Shown here one piece after another: positions 32,779-39,998 of a stretch of 64,000 nucleotides of DNA. The notes under the pieces were generated by a model. That model was given only the letters and a program-made list of their open reading frames with translations. It did no database searches and was not told the origin of the DNA. Position numbers and translations under genes: made by a program. The stretch's first letter is position 1, and each line of letters starts with the position of its first letter. Source of the stretch: Thermococcus bergensis (GTDB lineage Archaea > Methanobacteriota_B > Thermococci > Thermococcales > Thermococcaceae); assembly GCF_020386975.1 (NCBI RefSeq), contig NZ_JABFNK010000003.1:186001-250000 (forward strand), given 5' to 3'.

Positions 32779-33375
32779 CTATTCCTCTTCTTCTATGAAC
32801 TCTCCTTCCTCCCCTTTTTCATTGGAAAGCTCCCTCAGGCGATCAATTCCTGAACCTACAGCTATTAATATGTCCCCCTCTTCGATTTTCTCGTCCTTGG
32901 AGGGGTTATAAATGTATTTCCCTCCCCGCTTTATCGCTATCACTCTCACACCCACTTTAGTCGGAAGCTTGAGCTGTTTGAGGGATTGTCCTATTAGTAT
33001 TGATCCCCTGTTAACCTTTATGCGCCCTATTTCTTCATCAACATCGTGCATTATTTTCCTTATTATGGGGTGTGGCTCAACGTCCCTGAGAACAAGATCG
33101 GCTATTTCATAGGCAGAATCGCTTATCTGCTCGTTTATTGTGGCCATCTCAATTATACTTAAGAGTGTCTCGGGATTTTCTTCATGCTTAGCGGCCCTCA
33201 AAGCAAGCTTTTTCACCTTTAACGTAAGCTCGTCCATTTTTTCTTCTAGGATATAAACCTCATCAGCTATGTCCTCGCTGTCGTACATGACGGCGGAAAA
33301 AGCAAGGTCAACCATTAGCGAAGAGAGGTTTTTCATCTCTATTAAACAGCCTCTTATCTCCTCAAGCTCTTTCAT
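32779..33375 (-). CDS. PhoU-like plus TrkA-C (RCK_C) domain protein
   Basis: 198 residues. The N-terminal half is a PhoU-type helical bundle (LEEKMDELTLKVKKLALRAA). The C-terminal half has the RCK-C beta fold (LPTKVGVRVIAIKRGGKYIY, EEGDILIAVG), which binds small ligands. This architecture is typical of archaeal regulators beside ion channels or transporters. ATG 33375 is chosen since GGTGG lies 5 nt before it. It overlaps the stop of the next PhoU/TrkA-C gene by 14 nt, so they are co-translated. Confidence 0.82.
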   Translation of the reverse strand: MKELEEIRGCLIEMKNLSSLMVDLAFSAVMYDSEDIADEVYILEEKMDELTLKVKKLALRAAKHEENPETLLSIIEMATINEQISDSAYEIADLVLRDVEPHPIIRKIMHDVDEEIGRIKVNRGSILIGQSLKQLKLPTKVGVRVIAIKRGGKYIYNPSKDEKIEEGDILIAVGSGIDRLRELSNEKGEEGEFIEEEE

Positions 33376-33979
33376 CGCCAACCACCCTAATAACTCCCCT
33401 CGCAATCTCTTTGAGGTGCTCAACCGACGTATGCGTTCCCCTCCCTATCAAAATGTCCCCGGGCTTTATCTTGAAGTCCTTGTCGGGAGCAAAAATCCAC
33501 CTTTTGCCTCTCTTTACCGCTATTACCCAGACACCGGTGTTGGTGGCAAGATTAAGTTCTCCGAGTGTTTTTCCAACAATAACAGAATCCCCGGAGACAG
33601 GGATTTTTGCTATTACTTCCTCGCTTTCCATAATCGCCTCAGTAATCACCGGATGAAGCTCAACACCCTCAAGAACCATCTTTGCCAGGTCTCCAGCAGC
33701 GTTTGAGATGTCTTCTATTGAATTCGCCATCTGCAGGACGGAGGTTATCTGCTCGGCCTCTCTTGGGTTCCTAGCCGCTAAAACTGCATGCGTCATGAGG
33801 TGGTAATTAAGGAGATCCATTCTCTCCTCGAGGTCAAGCACTTCCTCAGCTATTTCTCTATCTTTAAAGAGAATTGCGGTATAAGCGAGATCAATCATGA
33901 GCTCAACAATATTTTTCATTTCTATGAAAATTTCCTTAACACTTTTAGGCTTATACTCAAACTCCTCAAACTCTTCCAT
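33362..33979 (-). CDS. PhoU-like plus TrkA-C (RCK_C) domain protein (paralogue)
   Basis: 205 residues, the same architecture as its downstream neighbour (EERMDLLNYHLMTHAVLAAR; NTGVWVIAVKRGKRWIF; KPGDILIGRGT). The two may form a heteromeric sensor that gates the adjacent MgtE-like transporter. GGAGGATAAGAG precedes ATG 33979. It lies 56 nt after the transporter gene on the same strand, so one operon is likely. Confidence 0.82.
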   Translation of the reverse strand: MEEFEEFEYKPKSVKEIFIEMKNIVELMIDLAYTAILFKDREIAEEVLDLEERMDLLNYHLMTHAVLAARNPREAEQITSVLQMANSIEDISNAAGDLAKMVLEGVELHPVITEAIMESEEVIAKIPVSGDSVIVGKTLGELNLATNTGVWVIAVKRGKRWIFAPDKDFKIKPGDILIGRGTHTSVEHLKEIARGVIRVVGDERA

Positions 33980-34035: not shown

Positions 34036-35220
34036 TTAAACAATCAAATAAGCAACTCCTACAGTGAATAGAGTTGAAAATATATCCGCTAAAGTCGTTA
34101 TAGTTGGAACAGTGGCATTATCCGGATCCAACCCAAGCCTATCAAAGATTATTGCAAAGAAGTACCCTATAAACATGTTAAACAAGACCAAGAATGGATA
34201 AAGAATGATAAACGGGAAAACCAACCCCACATTCTTCCCCAAGCTCACCTTTACAACCCCTATTGCCACTACGTTCATCAAAATCGCGATGAAAAAGCTT
34301 GTCACAAAGTATACGAAAATGTCCAAGAGAGAATCTCTGTTAAGAACACTCTCGATTTCTCCAAGGTGAAGCTTCGTTGAAGTTTTTGCCCCAATAATGG
34401 ATCCATAACTCCCGGCAGTACCAAGAATTGCGGGATACATAACACTGAACACCACTGATGCGTAGATAACCTCACTGTAAGATTCGAGTAGCCCTCCCGA
34501 AATGCTTGAGAAAAGTGCTAAAACCCCAATAATCCCCAGAATTTCCCCAACCATGCGCTTTTCTTCACTTTCAAATTTTGTTCTGAAACCCATAACCAGC
34601 AAAAGAAAAACTGCCAGAAGCACTAGAATATCAAAAAGACGCGGGAGATCTTCATGGAGAAGAATAAAGAGTACCAAAAAAGGTATCGTAACAAGATCAC
34701 CAGCAGAAGTTACCAGCGGAGCTGCAACAGTATCGGGGTCAATACCTCTCTTAAAAGGTAATACCGTGGCAATAGCAGTAGCATAACCCATTATCAAGCT
34801 AACAAAAATTGTAGAAGTCAGCACGATTAAAAGAACAATTACTCCTGATGCAACATTTCCTACCTTAATGACTCCCACAATCCAGAGCACGATAACAGGG
34901 AGCACTGACAGAAGAATACCCAAGAAGATGTTTTTTACAACATTTTTATCTCTTAGCTTTGGCTCCATCTCACCAAGGTGGAGCATGGTAGTAAAACGAG
35001 AAGCCATTGCACCGAAAATGTTGCCCCTCAATCCCATAAGACCCGGGAGAATTACAAATATAACCGGATAGCTCAGCATAATCTTTTCAAAAAACCTACC
35101 CAAGAATGCTCCAGCAAAGAAGTCCAGAATAAGACAAACTATTAGCGCCGGAAGTGCTATCAATGCCTCTCTGAACTTCTCTGAAAGCTCCCTCCAGAGC
35201 ACTACTTGGAGGTTTTTCAT
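34036..35220 (-). CDS. MgtE/SLC41-like divalent-cation transporter
   Basis: 394 residues, about ten transmembrane helices arranged as two MgtE-type integral domains. Signature pieces: LPGLMGLRGNIFGAMASR with DPDTVAAPLVTSAGDLVTIP, and GTAGSYGSIIGAKTSTK with DPDNATVPTITTLADIF. The cytosolic CBS/N domains of bacterial MgtE are missing, as in SLC41-type proteins. It probably transports Mg2+ or a related ion. The two PhoU/TrkA-C proteins downstream probably control it. The TATA-like TTTTTATATAA is near 35290-35300, giving a leader of about 50 nt. Confidence 0.82.
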   Translation of the reverse strand: MKNLQVVLWRELSEKFREALIALPALIVCLILDFFAGAFLGRFFEKIMLSYPVIFVILPGLMGLRGNIFGAMASRFTTMLHLGEMEPKLRDKNVVKNIFLGILLSVLPVIVLWIVGVIKVGNVASGVIVLLIVLTSTIFVSLIMGYATAIATVLPFKRGIDPDTVAAPLVTSAGDLVTIPFLVLFILLHEDLPRLFDILVLLAVFLLLVMGFRTKFESEEKRMVGEILGIIGVLALFSSISGGLLESYSEVIYASVVFSVMYPAILGTAGSYGSIIGAKTSTKLHLGEIESVLNRDSLLDIFVYFVTSFFIAILMNVVAIGVVKVSLGKNVGLVFPFIILYPFLVLFNMFIGYFFAIIFDRLGLDPDNATVPTITTLADIFSTLFTVGVAYLIV

Positions 35221-35356: not shown

Positions 35357-37231
35357 CTAACTCTTTTCTAACTGGAAGGGGGATACGTAGTCTCCATACT
35401 TCTCCTTAGCCTTAAGAAGTCTTTCTCTTTCCTTCTCCAAGACCTTAAAGAGCTCTTCCGGGATATTACCAACATCCCTATAAATCTTCTCAATCCTCTC
35501 TATCTTGGCAAGGAACTCTGGAACCCTTATGGTGAACTGCTTTTCATAGTCCTCTCTACTGTAGTCCTTGTTGAGGACTTCCTTAAAGAGCCTCTTCAGG
35601 TCTTCATATTTTGGAATGTACCCAACGGGAGTCTCTATTGCATCAACATCCCCGTGAACCCTCAGCTCCATCCACTTGAGCCACACGGCTTTGTCGAGCT
35701 TGTGGTTCAGCCAGTTGCCGTCTTTATCCCTCAGGAAGTAGTTAACGGCAAATATCTTTGGCTTTATTCTCAGCTTTTTTTCGAATTCAAGATAGTTTTT
35801 AAGATAGTCCCCAATATGAACGCTCAGGAAATCCAAAATAGCCATTGGATTAAATGCCCTCACTCCTTCCTTTCCAAGAGTAGCTGCAGTTGTTTCGCTT
35901 TCCAGTGCTGCACCCATGGTAACTACTCCGTGTGCCCAGTCAAAGGCCTCTCTCACAGGAGGCCAAGTATCTGCATCTCTGCCACCGAATATCATTCCCC
36001 CAATCCTAACCCCGCATGGAGCTTCAAGGGCTTCTAAATCAACGTTTGGAAATGCCTCAAGGCTGACTGTGAAGCGAGCATTTTTGTGGCTCGGTGGAAT
36101 CTCGTTACCCTCGGCATCTTTCTTTCCTCTCCACCACTTCCCGCTGTGGTTCTCGCCTTCGTCTGGAATCGGAATGCCCATGTCGTTCCAGTAGGGCTTT
36201 CCATCTTTAACGAGAACGTTCGAGAAGATTATCTCATTCGGTGAGTGAAGAACCTGCCATATTATTGGGTCATCCTCCTGGTTGACTCCCTGGATTATTC
36301 CAAAAACACCCTTCTCGACGTTAGCCCCTCTGGCTTCACCTTTCATGTCAACTATGAACGTGAGGTCGTCGCCCACTATGTTCTCCCATGGAAGCATTGC
36401 TGTTGAGGTTTTGCCGCACATAGATGGATAAGCTCCCGTGAAATAGGTTTTTCTCCCATTAGGTCCGTTCACGCGCATAAGAAACATGTGCTCGCTCAAC
36501 CAACCTTCTTGAACGGCTCTCCTAATCGTAAGCCTGAAGGCGAGCTTTTTGAGCCCTATTGTATTGCCACCGTACTGTGTGTTTGCTGAATAGACAGTCT
36601 CCCCTTCAAGGTCAATGTAAATCCTTCTCTTATCTATGTTCTTGCTGGTCTTTCTTTCGTCAAGTTCCCCCGCAGAATGGACAAACTTCAAAAACTTTGC
36701 ATCTCTTCCAAGGCGTTTAAACTCCTCGTAACCTTTTCTGTAAAGGATAAACTCACTGTGAGCAACATATGCGGAATCGGTGAGCTGAACAGCGGGAATC
36801 GTGAAGATTGAGTTCTTAGGGCCGAGCACAAAGAAACATACAAACAGCTCCTTACCTTTTGCAATATCTCTCATGATTTCATGAATCTCCTTAAGCCCTT
36901 CTTCCCTGTCCATAGTATTTATGAATGGAATCTCCACCCCCTTAGGAACCAAGATTTTAGTCCTAGCTTTATCTCTAGCTTGATCGTAATAGCCATCGTA
37001 GTGGACGGTATGCCCTTCCATCGCGAGGGGCTTCTCCTCCCCGTATTCAATTGCCTTTCTCCTTACATAGTCCTCATCTTCCTTCGAGTCTGTGCAAACA
37101 AAAACTTTTGCAGGATTCAAAAGATCAATGTACTTTGCCAAAAATTCATGAAGTTCAGGATTGTCAATTACCTTAATTTTCTCAAACTGTTCTGGATCAA
37201 GTCTATTTTGAAGATATTCCAAAGGCTCCAT
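35357..37231 (-). CDS. pckG: Phosphoenolpyruvate carboxykinase (GTP)
   Basis: 624 residues. GTP-dependent PEPCK: P-loop GAYPSMCGKTSTAMLPW with the reactive Cys, substrate-binding VHSAGELDE, kinase-2 region VGDDLTFIVDMKG, and PCGVRIGGMIFGGRDAD. It converts oxaloacetate and GTP to PEP, CO2 and GDP. This reaction serves gluconeogenesis or anaplerosis in Thermococcales. GGTGATGTAA precedes ATG 37231. A 15-bp palindrome lies between the TATA box and the start, suggesting repression. Confidence 0.95.
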   Translation of the reverse strand: MEPLEYLQNRLDPEQFEKIKVIDNPELHEFLAKYIDLLNPAKVFVCTDSKEDEDYVRRKAIEYGEEKPLAMEGHTVHYDGYYDQARDKARTKILVPKGVEIPFINTMDREEGLKEIHEIMRDIAKGKELFVCFFVLGPKNSIFTIPAVQLTDSAYVAHSEFILYRKGYEEFKRLGRDAKFLKFVHSAGELDERKTSKNIDKRRIYIDLEGETVYSANTQYGGNTIGLKKLAFRLTIRRAVQEGWLSEHMFLMRVNGPNGRKTYFTGAYPSMCGKTSTAMLPWENIVGDDLTFIVDMKGEARGANVEKGVFGIIQGVNQEDDPIIWQVLHSPNEIIFSNVLVKDGKPYWNDMGIPIPDEGENHSGKWWRGKKDAEGNEIPPSHKNARFTVSLEAFPNVDLEALEAPCGVRIGGMIFGGRDADTWPPVREAFDWAHGVVTMGAALESETTAATLGKEGVRAFNPMAILDFLSVHIGDYLKNYLEFEKKLRIKPKIFAVNYFLRDKDGNWLNHKLDKAVWLKWMELRVHGDVDAIETPVGYIPKYEDLKRLFKEVLNKDYSREDYEKQFTIRVPEFLAKIERIEKIYRDVGNIPEELFKVLEKERERLLKAKEKYGDYVSPFQLEKS

Positions 37232-37338: not shown

Positions 37339-38424
37339 ATGCAAGCAGTTATTCTAGCGGGCGGAAAAGGCACAAGATTGCTTCCTCTAACCGTCTACCG
37401 CCCCAAACCAATGATTCCATTTTTCAACAAACCCATGATGGAGTACATAGTCAACGCCCTAGTAAACGCTGGAGTGGAAGAGATATTCGTACTCGTTGGA
37501 TACCTAAAAGAGAGAATCATGGAGTATTTTGGAGACGGAAGTGATTTTGGGGTTGAGATTCACTATTCAAATGGAGAAAACATAAAGCTTGGAACCGCAG
37601 GAGCAACAAAAAAGGTTGTGGACAAAATAGAGGACACGTTTATAGTCGCTTCAAGTGATGTTCTCACCAATTTAAACATTAGAGCTCTCTATGAGTACCA
37701 CAAGAAAAAGAAAGCCCTCGCAACAATAGCCCTCTCGCAGGTTGAAGATCCAACCCAGTATGGGATAGCGATTGTAGATTCAGAGAACAGAATAATAAGG
37801 TTCAAGGAAAAACCAAAGCCGGAAGAGGCATTTAGCAACCTTGTAAATGCAGGCATCTACGTCTTCGAACCAGAGGCATTCGATCTAGTACCCAAAGGGG
37901 AAAACTTTGATTTCTCACTCAATCTGTTTCCCAAAATGCTCGAAGAGAATTTGCCCCTTTATGGTTTTCCGTTTAAAGAATACTGGAACGACGTGGGGAG
38001 GCCATCAAGCTACCTTCAAGCAACTGAGGACGTGTTCTTGGGGAGACTGAGACTCCCACAAATAAAAACTGAATCCCTAAAAGGAAACCTGGAACACGGG
38101 GGCTCTCTTTACAGCGGTAAGAGATGTCAAATCAGAAACCCGCGTATAAGAGGATTTGCCGTCTTGGGCGATAACGTTAAAATAGGCAGAAACGTTAAAA
38201 TAGAGCGGTCCGTAATATTCTCCAATGTGACCATTGAGGAAGGAGCAGAGATACACGAGGCGATAATTGGGGAAAACGTTTACATTGGAAAAGGTGTTGT
38301 TATTGAAAGCGGTAGCGTTATTGGAGATAACTCCGTGATTGAAGATTTCACAAAAATTGGGGCAAATGTAAAAGTCTGGACTGAGTCAAGAATTGGAAAA
38401 GAAAGTATAATACTTCCAGATTGA
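37339..38424 (+). CDS. Sugar-1-phosphate nucleotidyltransferase with left-handed beta-helix
   Basis: 361 residues. The N-terminal nucleotidyltransferase domain has VILAGGKGTRLLPLT (residues 4-18), YRPKPMIPF, LGTAGATK, ASSDVLTN (Asp for Mg2+), NAGIYVFEP and YWNDVGRPSSY. The C-terminal third has hexapeptide repeats (NVKIGRNVKIERSVIF, GENVYIGKGVVIESG), a trimer-forming or allosteric domain. It makes an NDP-sugar (GDP-mannose, UDP- or dTDP-glucose are all possible). GGTGG lies 8 nt before ATG. The next gene is 10 nt away and encodes an inactive phosphohexomutase-like protein, suggesting a complex. Confidence 0.88.
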   Translation: MQAVILAGGKGTRLLPLTVYRPKPMIPFFNKPMMEYIVNALVNAGVEEIFVLVGYLKERIMEYFGDGSDFGVEIHYSNGENIKLGTAGATKKVVDKIEDTFIVASSDVLTNLNIRALYEYHKKKKALATIALSQVEDPTQYGIAIVDSENRIIRFKEKPKPEEAFSNLVNAGIYVFEPEAFDLVPKGENFDFSLNLFPKMLEENLPLYGFPFKEYWNDVGRPSSYLQATEDVFLGRLRLPQIKTESLKGNLEHGGSLYSGKRCQIRNPRIRGFAVLGDNVKIGRNVKIERSVIFSNVTIEEGAEIHEAIIGENVYIGKGVVIESGSVIGDNSVIEDFTKIGANVKVWTESRIGKESIILPD

Positions 38425-38434
38425 GGTGATGATT

Positions 38435-39145
38435 ATGGAGATTTACAAATCCGAGGAATTCAACCCAGAAGAGCTTGCTCTGCTCGGTAGGGCAATAGGA
38501 ACCGTAGGACAGGGAACTATAGTGGTAGGACGAGACGGAAGAGCTATCTCAAGGTATGGAAAGAGGGCACTCGTAGTGGGGATTGTAAGTACCGGAGCAG
38601 CAACTATGGACGTCAGGCTTATCCCGCTAATAGCCCTCAAAGATTTTGCCCATAAGAAAGGCCTTCCTCTGGTGTATGTTTACTACCACAACGGGATAAG
38701 GGTAGAAGTTAGCGGTCTTGATCCAGATGAAATAAAGGCTATAATGGAGAGCAGGAAGTTTATAGAAGCAAATCCCAATGATATAGGAGCAACGATTTAC
38801 TATCCTAACGCTCTAGATGACTTTTTGCATGACATTTTCAGACACTATAATTTTGAGATAGAGGGAACTGCACTGGTAGATTGCATGAATACTCCCGCAG
38901 TACTCTTCTTCCCCAGGCTAAATGAGCACTTTGGGTTTGAGGTGGAGCTTCTCAATGACATGATGACCAGCTACCTGCCACCAAAACCAAAAGAAGTCTA
39001 CCTTCAAAAGCTCAAAAAGGGAGAGTATACTTTTGGACTCCGTTTCAAGCCAAATGGATACGTAGAGTTCCACAAAGGGGAAGAGGAAAAAGAGTTTGGA
39101 AGCATGTGGAAGCTCCTAGACCACATGAAGAAAACTCTCCTCTGA
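38435..39145 (+). CDS. Truncated, catalytically dead phosphohexomutase-like protein
   Basis: 236 residues. TIVVGRDGRAISRYGKRALV and GIVSTGAATMDVRLIPLIAL align well with domain I of phosphomannomutase. VYVYYHNGIRVEV replaces the active-site TASHNP-EYNGIKV: the phospho-Ser and the Pro are lost and the loop is shortened. GTALVDCMNTPAVLFFPRL and GFEVELLND match domain II, but the Mg2+ loop DGDADR is replaced by FKPNGYV. Domains III and IV are absent. It therefore should not be a mutase; a regulatory or structural role for the upstream nucleotidyltransferase is my inference. The ATG follows GAGGTG by 6 nt, and the gene is 10 nt after its neighbour. Confidence 0.8.
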   Translation: MEIYKSEEFNPEELALLGRAIGTVGQGTIVVGRDGRAISRYGKRALVVGIVSTGAATMDVRLIPLIALKDFAHKKGLPLVYVYYHNGIRVEVSGLDPDEIKAIMESRKFIEANPNDIGATIYYPNALDDFLHDIFRHYNFEIEGTALVDCMNTPAVLFFPRLNEHFGFEVELLNDMMTSYLPPKPKEVYLQKLKKGEYTFGLRFKPNGYVEFHKGEEEKEFGSMWKLLDHMKKTLL

Positions 39146-39220: not shown

Positions 39221-39850
39221 ATGAGCATATTCATTGTCTTAGAGGGAATTGATGGAGCGGGAAAGTCAACCCAGGCAAAATTGCTTGCAGAGTGGTTTGA
39301 AGAGAGAGGATACGAAGTTGTTCTAACCAAAGAGCCAACAGATACTGCTTTTGGGAAACTGATAAGGAGGCTTGTACTTACAGGAGGAAAAGAGGGAATA
39401 ATAGATGGTGCACGAATAAGCAAAGAAGCTGAGGCATTACTCTTTGCTGCAGATAGAGCAGAGCACGTTAAAAAACTCATAGAGCCCTCCTTAAAGGCTG
39501 GAAAGGTAGTTATATCGGATAGGTATTTCTACTCATCCCTAGCCTACCAGTGGGCAAGGGGCCTTGATTTGGAATGGCTTATCAACTTAAATGCATTTGC
39601 TCCAAGAGCAGACCTTGTAATCCTCCTTGATTTGCCTGTTAAGGAGAGCATAAAACGCATAAACGGTAGAAGTATCAAATCGGAGTTTGATAAGATTGTT
39701 GAGCTCCAAAAAAAGGTAAGGGAAAACTATCTGAAGCTTGCCGAGAGGTTCGATGAGATAAGAATTGTAAACGCCCTAGCCCCTGTTGAGGACATCCACA
39801 AGGATATTGTGGCTTTAGTCGAGCATGAACTCCTCGAAAAAAGAGAATAA
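39221..39850 (+). CDS. tmk: Thymidylate kinase
   Basis: 209 residues. P-loop [15 protein letters not shown] near residues 5-19, [18 protein letters not shown] and [11 protein letters not shown] are typical of Tmk. It phosphorylates dTMP to dTDP with ATP in dTTP synthesis. GGAGGTG precedes the ATG. A divergently transcribed C/D sRNA ends right after its stop codon on the opposite strand. Confidence 0.93.
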
Positions 39851-39851
39851 A

Positions 39852-39909
39852 ACGGTCAGATAGTGCCGATATCATCACTGCTCAGACCGGTAAACGCACA
39901 TCATCCCAA
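39852..39909 (-). ncRNA. C/D box sRNA (minus strand)
   Basis: Read on the minus strand: C box ATGATGT (39904-39898, one base off RUGAUGA), guide of 12 nt (39897-39886), D' box CTGA (39885-39882), linker GCA, C' box GTGATGA (39878-39872), guide of 12 nt (39871-39860) and D box CTGA (39859-39856). Both spacers are exactly the 12 nt used by archaeal C/D guides for 2'-O-methylation with fibrillarin, Nop5 and L7Ae. Targets follow the D+5 rule but were not searched. A TATA-like CTTTTTAAAG (39940-39929) lies 26 nt upstream of the start. Confidence 0.78.
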
Positions 39910-39941: not shown

Positions 39942-39998
39942 AGCCGATGATGAGCGTTAGCCACTCTGATGATGATGACAAGAGGGTTAGCTGAGGTA
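39942..39998 (+). ncRNA. C/D box sRNA (plus strand)
   Basis: C box ATGATGA (39947-39953), guide GCGTTAGCCACT (39954-39965), D' box CTGA (39966-39969), a 2-nt linker, C' box ATGATGA (39972-39978), guide CAAGAGGGTTAG (39979-39990) and D box CTGA (39991-39994). Every box matches the consensus and both spacers are 12 nt, the archaeal standard. It should guide 2'-O-methylation at the position pairing with the fifth nucleotide upstream of D or D'. The targets (rRNA or tRNA) need a search. Confidence 0.85.

Follow-up and report, generated by a model that had tools for sequence, protein, structure and literature searches.

A probable pseudo-phosphohexomutase conserved in Thermococcales with or without its neighboring sugar nucleotidyltransferase

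Introduction

Proteins that derive from enzymes but are catalytically dead have usually been explained as helpers of an adjacent enzyme. In GMPPA/GMPPB and GlgD/GlgC, a noncatalytic protein is paired with a sugar nucleotidyltransferase. GMPPA is described in PMC11228364. In Thermococcus kodakarensis, four COG1109 genes (TK1108, TK1404, TK1777, and TK2185) are named in a review (PMC11940775); it gives TK1777 as a phosphopentomutase and, as a secondary report, says that only TK1108 among the remaining three yielded PGM and PMM activity. TK1405 is a PEP carboxykinase (PMC11921379). In bacteria, nucleotidyltransferase and mutase domains occur in one polypeptide, and the Streptomyces protein SCO1388, which has this fusion architecture, was called apparently bifunctional, its disruption having little effect (PMC5982138).

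We analyzed a gene, here named P2, in a stretch of 64,000 nucleotides of Thermococcus bergensis (the window; contig NZ_JABFNK010000003.1, positions 186,001–250,000). An earlier note on this DNA had read P2 as a phosphohexomutase-like pseudoenzyme, plausibly a dedicated subunit of the sugar-1-phosphate nucleotidyltransferase (NTase) encoded just upstream. A literature search found no published description of P2 as a pseudoenzyme.

Results

In the window, the gene order is pckA, NTase, P2, and tmk, the last three on the forward strand and pckA divergent (Table 1). The ATG of P2 is at 38435, its stop codon at 39143–39145, and the NTase stop codon at 38422–38424; the position, strand, and 10-nt spacing given for P2 in the earlier note were thus all correct. 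A GTG at 38426 is likewise open as a start, but the ATG is favored because the N-terminus M-E-(I/V/L)-Y is conserved.

Table 1. Coordinates of the genes, domains, and motifs at the P2 locus in the window.
Feature	Coordinates	Strand	Basis
pckA, GTP-type phosphoenolpyruvate carboxykinase, divergent neighbor	35357..37231	-	Locus comparison
NTase (sugar-1-phosphate nucleotidyltransferase) of 361 aa; intact catalytic motifs, C-terminus a left-handed beta-helix	37339..38424	+	Profile matches, structure match, motif census
Likely P2 ribosome-binding site (GAGGTGAT region), overlapping the last part of the NTase stop codon	38424..38431	+	Sequence
P2 (236 aa), pseudo-phosphohexomutase with two domains; starts with ATG, stops with TGA	38435..39145	+	Sequence, Pfam, model, motif census
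P2 domain I, residues 1 to about 106 (approximate boundary)	38435..38752	+	Pfam PGM_PMM_I, model
Retained GRDGR loop, residues 32–36, invariant in 93/93	38528..38542	+	Conservation, motif census
YVYYHNGIRV, residues 81–90, replacing TASHNP...NGIKV; catalytic Ser/His lost, NGxK lysine to R	38675..38704	+	Alignment
P2 domain II, residues about 107–236 (approximate boundary)	38753..39142	+	Profile and fold matches, PDB mutases
P2-specific conserved NDMMTSYLPPKPKEV, residues 174–188, replacing mutase LNxxPDGxFP..EP loop	38954..38998	+	Alignment, conservation
FKPNGYV, residues 204–210, replacing DGDADR; metal-binding loop lost	39044..39064	+	Alignment, motif census
tmk, thymidylate kinase, next gene 3' of P2 in 93/93 genomes	39221..39850	+	Sequence, family knowledge

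The gene downstream of P2, which we take to be tmk from its sequence and established family knowledge, follows at a distance of 7–147 nt in every one of the 93 genomes. The upstream neighbor varies, being pckA, a DnaG-like primase, or threonine synthase; pckA adjoins the locus in most Thermococcus-like genomes and not in the Pyrococcus genomes examined. The constant linkage of P2 and tmk deserves attention because Thermococcales chromosomes are heavily rearranged and inverted, according to one study (PMC5495485), although a shared promoter may be all that lies behind it. Two C/D-box sRNAs lie just 3' of tmk on opposite strands, sR34 at 39943–39996 (+, 76 bits) and sR12 at 39855–39906 (-, 51 bits). 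Elsewhere in the window, two adjoining genes on the reverse strand (32779–33979 and 34036–35220), reported as slightly overlapping, resemble by eye PhoU/TrkA-C-type regulators, and the membrane protein beside both resembles, also by eye, a divalent-cation transporter (MgtE/SLC41-like).

P2 is a homolog of the alpha-D-phosphohexomutases, with significant profile similarity and the fold of their domains I and II. Pfam PGM_PMM_I (PF02878) recognizes domain I at 2e-7, above the family cut-off, and Arch_GlmM matches residues 7–195 at 1.4e-16, far under its curated cut-off, while domain II is supported by a profile search against PDB mutases together with structure. The first model, made from 50 P2 orthologs only and zero mutase rows, had a pLDDT of 70, with domain II good and parts of domain I poor; even with this mutase-free alignment, the best PDB matches were still mutases. 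For the second (AlphaFold; pLDDT 94.4, pTM 0.88), the alignment was enlarged by the domain I–II part of 23 intact Thermococcales mutases, and the model is partly informed by those rows. Searched with Foldseek, it gave an E of 4.8e-14 and a TM of 0.74 on the query, and P2 superposes on domains I–II of the T. kodakarensis phosphoglucomutase (the top match), phosphopentomutase, and others. Pfam, profile, and both models agree with the original proposal that domains I and II are kept and III and IV missing; the open frames of three intact mutases elsewhere in this genome measure 453–464 aa, against the 236 aa of P2, which holds I–II only. One P2 domain is also matched by PDB 2eiu, the 120-residue Aquifex protein AQ1627 of unknown function, a hint at further stand-alone mutase-domain fragments.

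The catalytic motifs are gone throughout the family. In the motif census, SHNP, DxDxDR, and the N-terminal FGTxGxR were each found in 0 of the 93 P2 orthologs, so that the replacement of both catalytic signatures, first noticed in the window, is fixed, and no ortholog with intact catalytic loops, the counterexample named at that time, occurs among the 93. Nor does P2 have what defines an active alpha-phosphohexomutase: T(A/G)SHNP and DGD(A/G)DR are both at 0/93 and the four-domain arrangement is absent. The lesions go beyond those listed earlier, in that the N-terminal phosphate loop is deleted and the NGxK lysine has become R, rarely N; in the alignment, all three loops carry deletions. The sequences in place of the lost loops are themselves highly conserved. 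GRDGR and G(L/M)RF(K/R)PxG are present in 93/93, and the invariant positions (80 of 236 across the 93 genomes) cluster in GRDGR, RYGKR, Y.YY..G, DIGA..YYPNA, NDM...Y.PPKP, and G.RF.P.G.

The NTase has its best family match in the Rv3264c-type mannose-1-phosphate guanylyltransferases (NF052502), at 257 bits against a curated cut-off of 440, and its best PDB match in the UTP-glucose-1-phosphate uridylyltransferase 8x7s; most copies retain intact catalytic motifs. Of 94 Thermococcales genomes, 93 have exactly one copy of P2, and the one in which it was not found is a 73%-complete assembly; the same search gave strong NTase matches in 66 of the 94. When the loci of the 93 genomes were read, 64 had the NTase (including G083, where it is split across contig ends), six had a broken or fragmentary copy (G003, G026, G029, G036, G049, and G057; the G003 stop codon, located on a fragment at the edge of a contig, is possibly an error), and 23 had none. 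Measured from its last sense codon, the NTase of the 64 is 13–17 nt upstream of P2. Most of the 23 have clean pckA–P2 junctions, the two genes being about 110–430 nt apart. P2 adjoins pckA in G024, where the NTase is absent; in G001, also NTase-less, a threonine-dehydrogenase-like gene lies between them on the opposite strand (L047, 2823–4016). Adjacency of the pair, raised in the earlier note as a point to check, thus holds for every intact NTase, but in 29 of the 93 genomes an intact P2 stands beside a missing (23) or decayed or fragmentary (6) NTase. The reverse case, NTase without P2, was seen in no genome of the order, and P2 was broken or decaying in none of the 93.

Dollo parsimony on a P2+tmk+pckA tree, some nodes of which are weak, gave a minimum of 13 NTase losses, which suggests roughly a dozen separate losses in Thermococcales. 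Within this one order, NTase decay beside P2 is graded, from copies containing stops to short fragments and clean deletion (L065, L053, L099, L132, and L127). Relocation of the NTase was ruled out, as NTase-less genomes have no intact match at E<=1e-80, and so was an assembly artefact, many of these genomes being single-contig and 99% complete. Other NTases are still present in those NTase-less genomes examined.

Outside the order, no P2 homologs were detected in 72,556 plasmids, apart from weak partial chance matches, or in 21 non-Thermococcales genomes of the phylum, where four weak matches were, or seemed to be, canonical mutases. A contig scan gave matches in Thermococcales only; it used near-exact peptides, which distant forms escape.

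P2 behaves as a protein under selection even where the NTase is gone, with the frame intact and dN/dS well under 1: about 0.02–0.2 without the NTase (median 0.11, vs. 0.07 with it), the lowest value being 0.018 at a dS of 0.64 in the NTase-less pair G019/G033. Relative to tmk+pckA, P2 divergence was 1.4–2.5 times in most NTase-less pairs and 0.8–1.3 times in those with the NTase (the pairs are nonindependent), while the closest NTase-less pairs showed no excess (0.66, n=7). Because P2 diverges faster in NTase-less genomes, a residual link between the two is plausible; these comparisons are suggestive of a constraint that came in part from the NTase, with a core that did not.

Among plasmid-borne NTases, most of those that match the NTase of the window with the highest coverage and identity form the front half of fused bacterial proteins of 832–845 aa. 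The mutase part of all four examined has lost both TASHNP and DGDADR (L072, 3001–5538; L073, 3001–5517; L074, 3001–5499; L075, 3001–5505). The earlier remark on fused GMP/PMM proteins was therefore apt, as the fusions with the most similar NTase carry dead mutase domains. Fusions like these should not be taken to be active mutases, and their annotation as bifunctional GMP/PMM is doubtful.

Discussion

That P2 is a catalytically dead pseudoenzyme, as first proposed, is well supported by the missing motifs, by purifying selection, and by the published lack of PGM and PMM activity for TK1404. The latter is probably the T. kodakarensis ortholog of P2, going by synteny (TK1405 is pckA) rather than by an annotated record, and "phosphomannomutase" labels on genes of this type are probably wrong as to function.

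Sequence comparisons show P2 as a dead descendant, reduced to domains I and II, of an alpha-phosphohexomutase, now a single-copy core protein of Thermococcales. We consider it fairly probable that this lineage-specific pseudoenzyme, in an operon with tmk, binds a ligand or partner, the NTase not being the main one. Conservation alone leads us to infer that P2 would act by binding and not by catalysis. The conserved loops (GRDGR, SRYGKR, YVYYxxGVRV, DIGATVYYPNALDD, NDMMTSYLPPKPKEV, and GLRF(K/R)PxG) are predicted to line the old cleft between domains I and II, and the remodeled cleft could hold a small ligand (a nucleotide or a sugar phosphate, perhaps) in a pocket, offer a docking face to a partner protein, or do both. 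Such a partner should exist in every Thermococcales cell. In genomes that have the adjacent NTase, P2 probably also served it as a regulatory or scaffold subunit, while the essential partner would be elsewhere; candidates are the universal paralogous NTases, the mutases, or the neighboring thymidylate kinase. A more specific version is a long shot: throughout Thermococcales, P2 would be a sensor of a sugar phosphate or nucleotide and would control some essential step, possibly thymidylate kinase, with the NTase a secondary and dispensable partner; if true, it would link carbohydrate status to DNA-precursor supply.

The role suggested in the earlier note, in which P2 would be dedicated to the adjacent NTase as its regulatory or scaffold subunit, in principle as GMPPA is to GMPPB, now appears unlikely, and as the sole role of P2 it is largely refuted. 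In its favor, all intact full-length NTase orthologs found in the order sit just upstream of P2, and the P2 ribosome-binding site overlaps the stop codon of the NTase; P2 also evolves faster in genomes without the NTase, and in bacteria a similar NTase is fused to a dead mutase domain. However, the obligate co-occurrence expected of a dedicated subunit is not seen: 29 of the 93 genomes keep an intact, selected P2 and no working NTase, none has the NTase and no P2 or a decaying P2, and the constant neighbor is tmk. P2 has outlived the NTase about a dozen times, and its operon neighbor is therefore not the reason for its conservation. What may survive of the suggestion is a former or partial NTase role, consistent with the faster evolution of P2 after the loss. 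The retention of P2 where the NTase decayed or was deleted would point to some other job for the dead enzyme. Its truncation and catalytic death, next to an NTase that does decay, might suggest a relic heading for loss, but purifying selection refutes this reading, which has next to no probability for a universal, single-copy gene with low dN/dS and an intact frame in 93/93. A new catalytic activity in the remodeled cleft, through the invariant polar residues R36, R40, K43, R44, D59, Y83, Y84, D116, N125, D129, K184, and R203, is improbable as well: polar and aromatic residues are very highly conserved at the former active-site loops, but P2 has none of the nucleophile, metal, and phosphate-clamp elements known from the superfamily and no domains III–IV, the bearers of sugar and phosphate binding, and the review cited above (PMC11940775) reports no PGM or PMM activity for TK1404.

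The origin of the pair is a separate matter, compatible with the binding role that we favor. P2 and the NTase could be a split form of the bacterial NTase–pseudomutase fusion family, with domain III lost, a derivation that we regard as possible but rather doubtful. The order of the two genes is that of the fusion domains, the best-covered plasmid NTase matches are mostly in fusions, and actinobacterial fusions share with P2 FG(V/L)RFxPxG and a domain I PL instead of PT. On the other hand, the NTase tree has no specific grouping of the window NTase with fusions, the mutase-domain tree sets P2 by itself, at the end of a very long stem (1.75), with fusions and canonical mutases on the other side, the loop lesions differ, P2 having deletions where the fusions keep loop length, and with a P2 profile, two canonical Thermococcales mutases score above the fusions. 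Either the pair is a split relative of the fusions, or the linkage of a dead mutase to a sugar NTase arose on two occasions.

The puzzle that remains, why a dead enzyme should survive the loss of its partner, is real and testable. Gene knockouts are routine in T. kodakarensis, and the question of P2 can be addressed there directly.

Compared with known systems, P2 is closest to the alpha-D-phosphohexomutase superfamily (PMM/PGM, GlmM, and archaeal phosphopentomutase; COG1109), with 9du5, 9ix8, and 1wqa as the closest PDB mutases. It resembles these enzymes in the fold of domains I–II, the GRDGR loop, and the order of secondary structures, but is without the N-terminal FGTxGxR loop, TASHNP, DGDADR, the NGxK lysine, and domains III–IV. 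TK1404, annotated as a phosphomannomutase and one of the four COG1109 genes, is very probably the P2 ortholog and adjoins pckA, in an NTase-less genome. In the bacterial NTase-LbH-PMM fusions (SCO1388-like), a similar NTase is joined to a mutase-like domain with lost catalytic loops in four of four cases; unlike P2, these are fused and keep extra C-terminal sequence, and their lesions differ. Finally, the regulators in GMPPA/GMPPB and GlgD/GlgC are homologs of the NTase itself, whereas P2 is a homolog of a mutase and is kept without the NTase.
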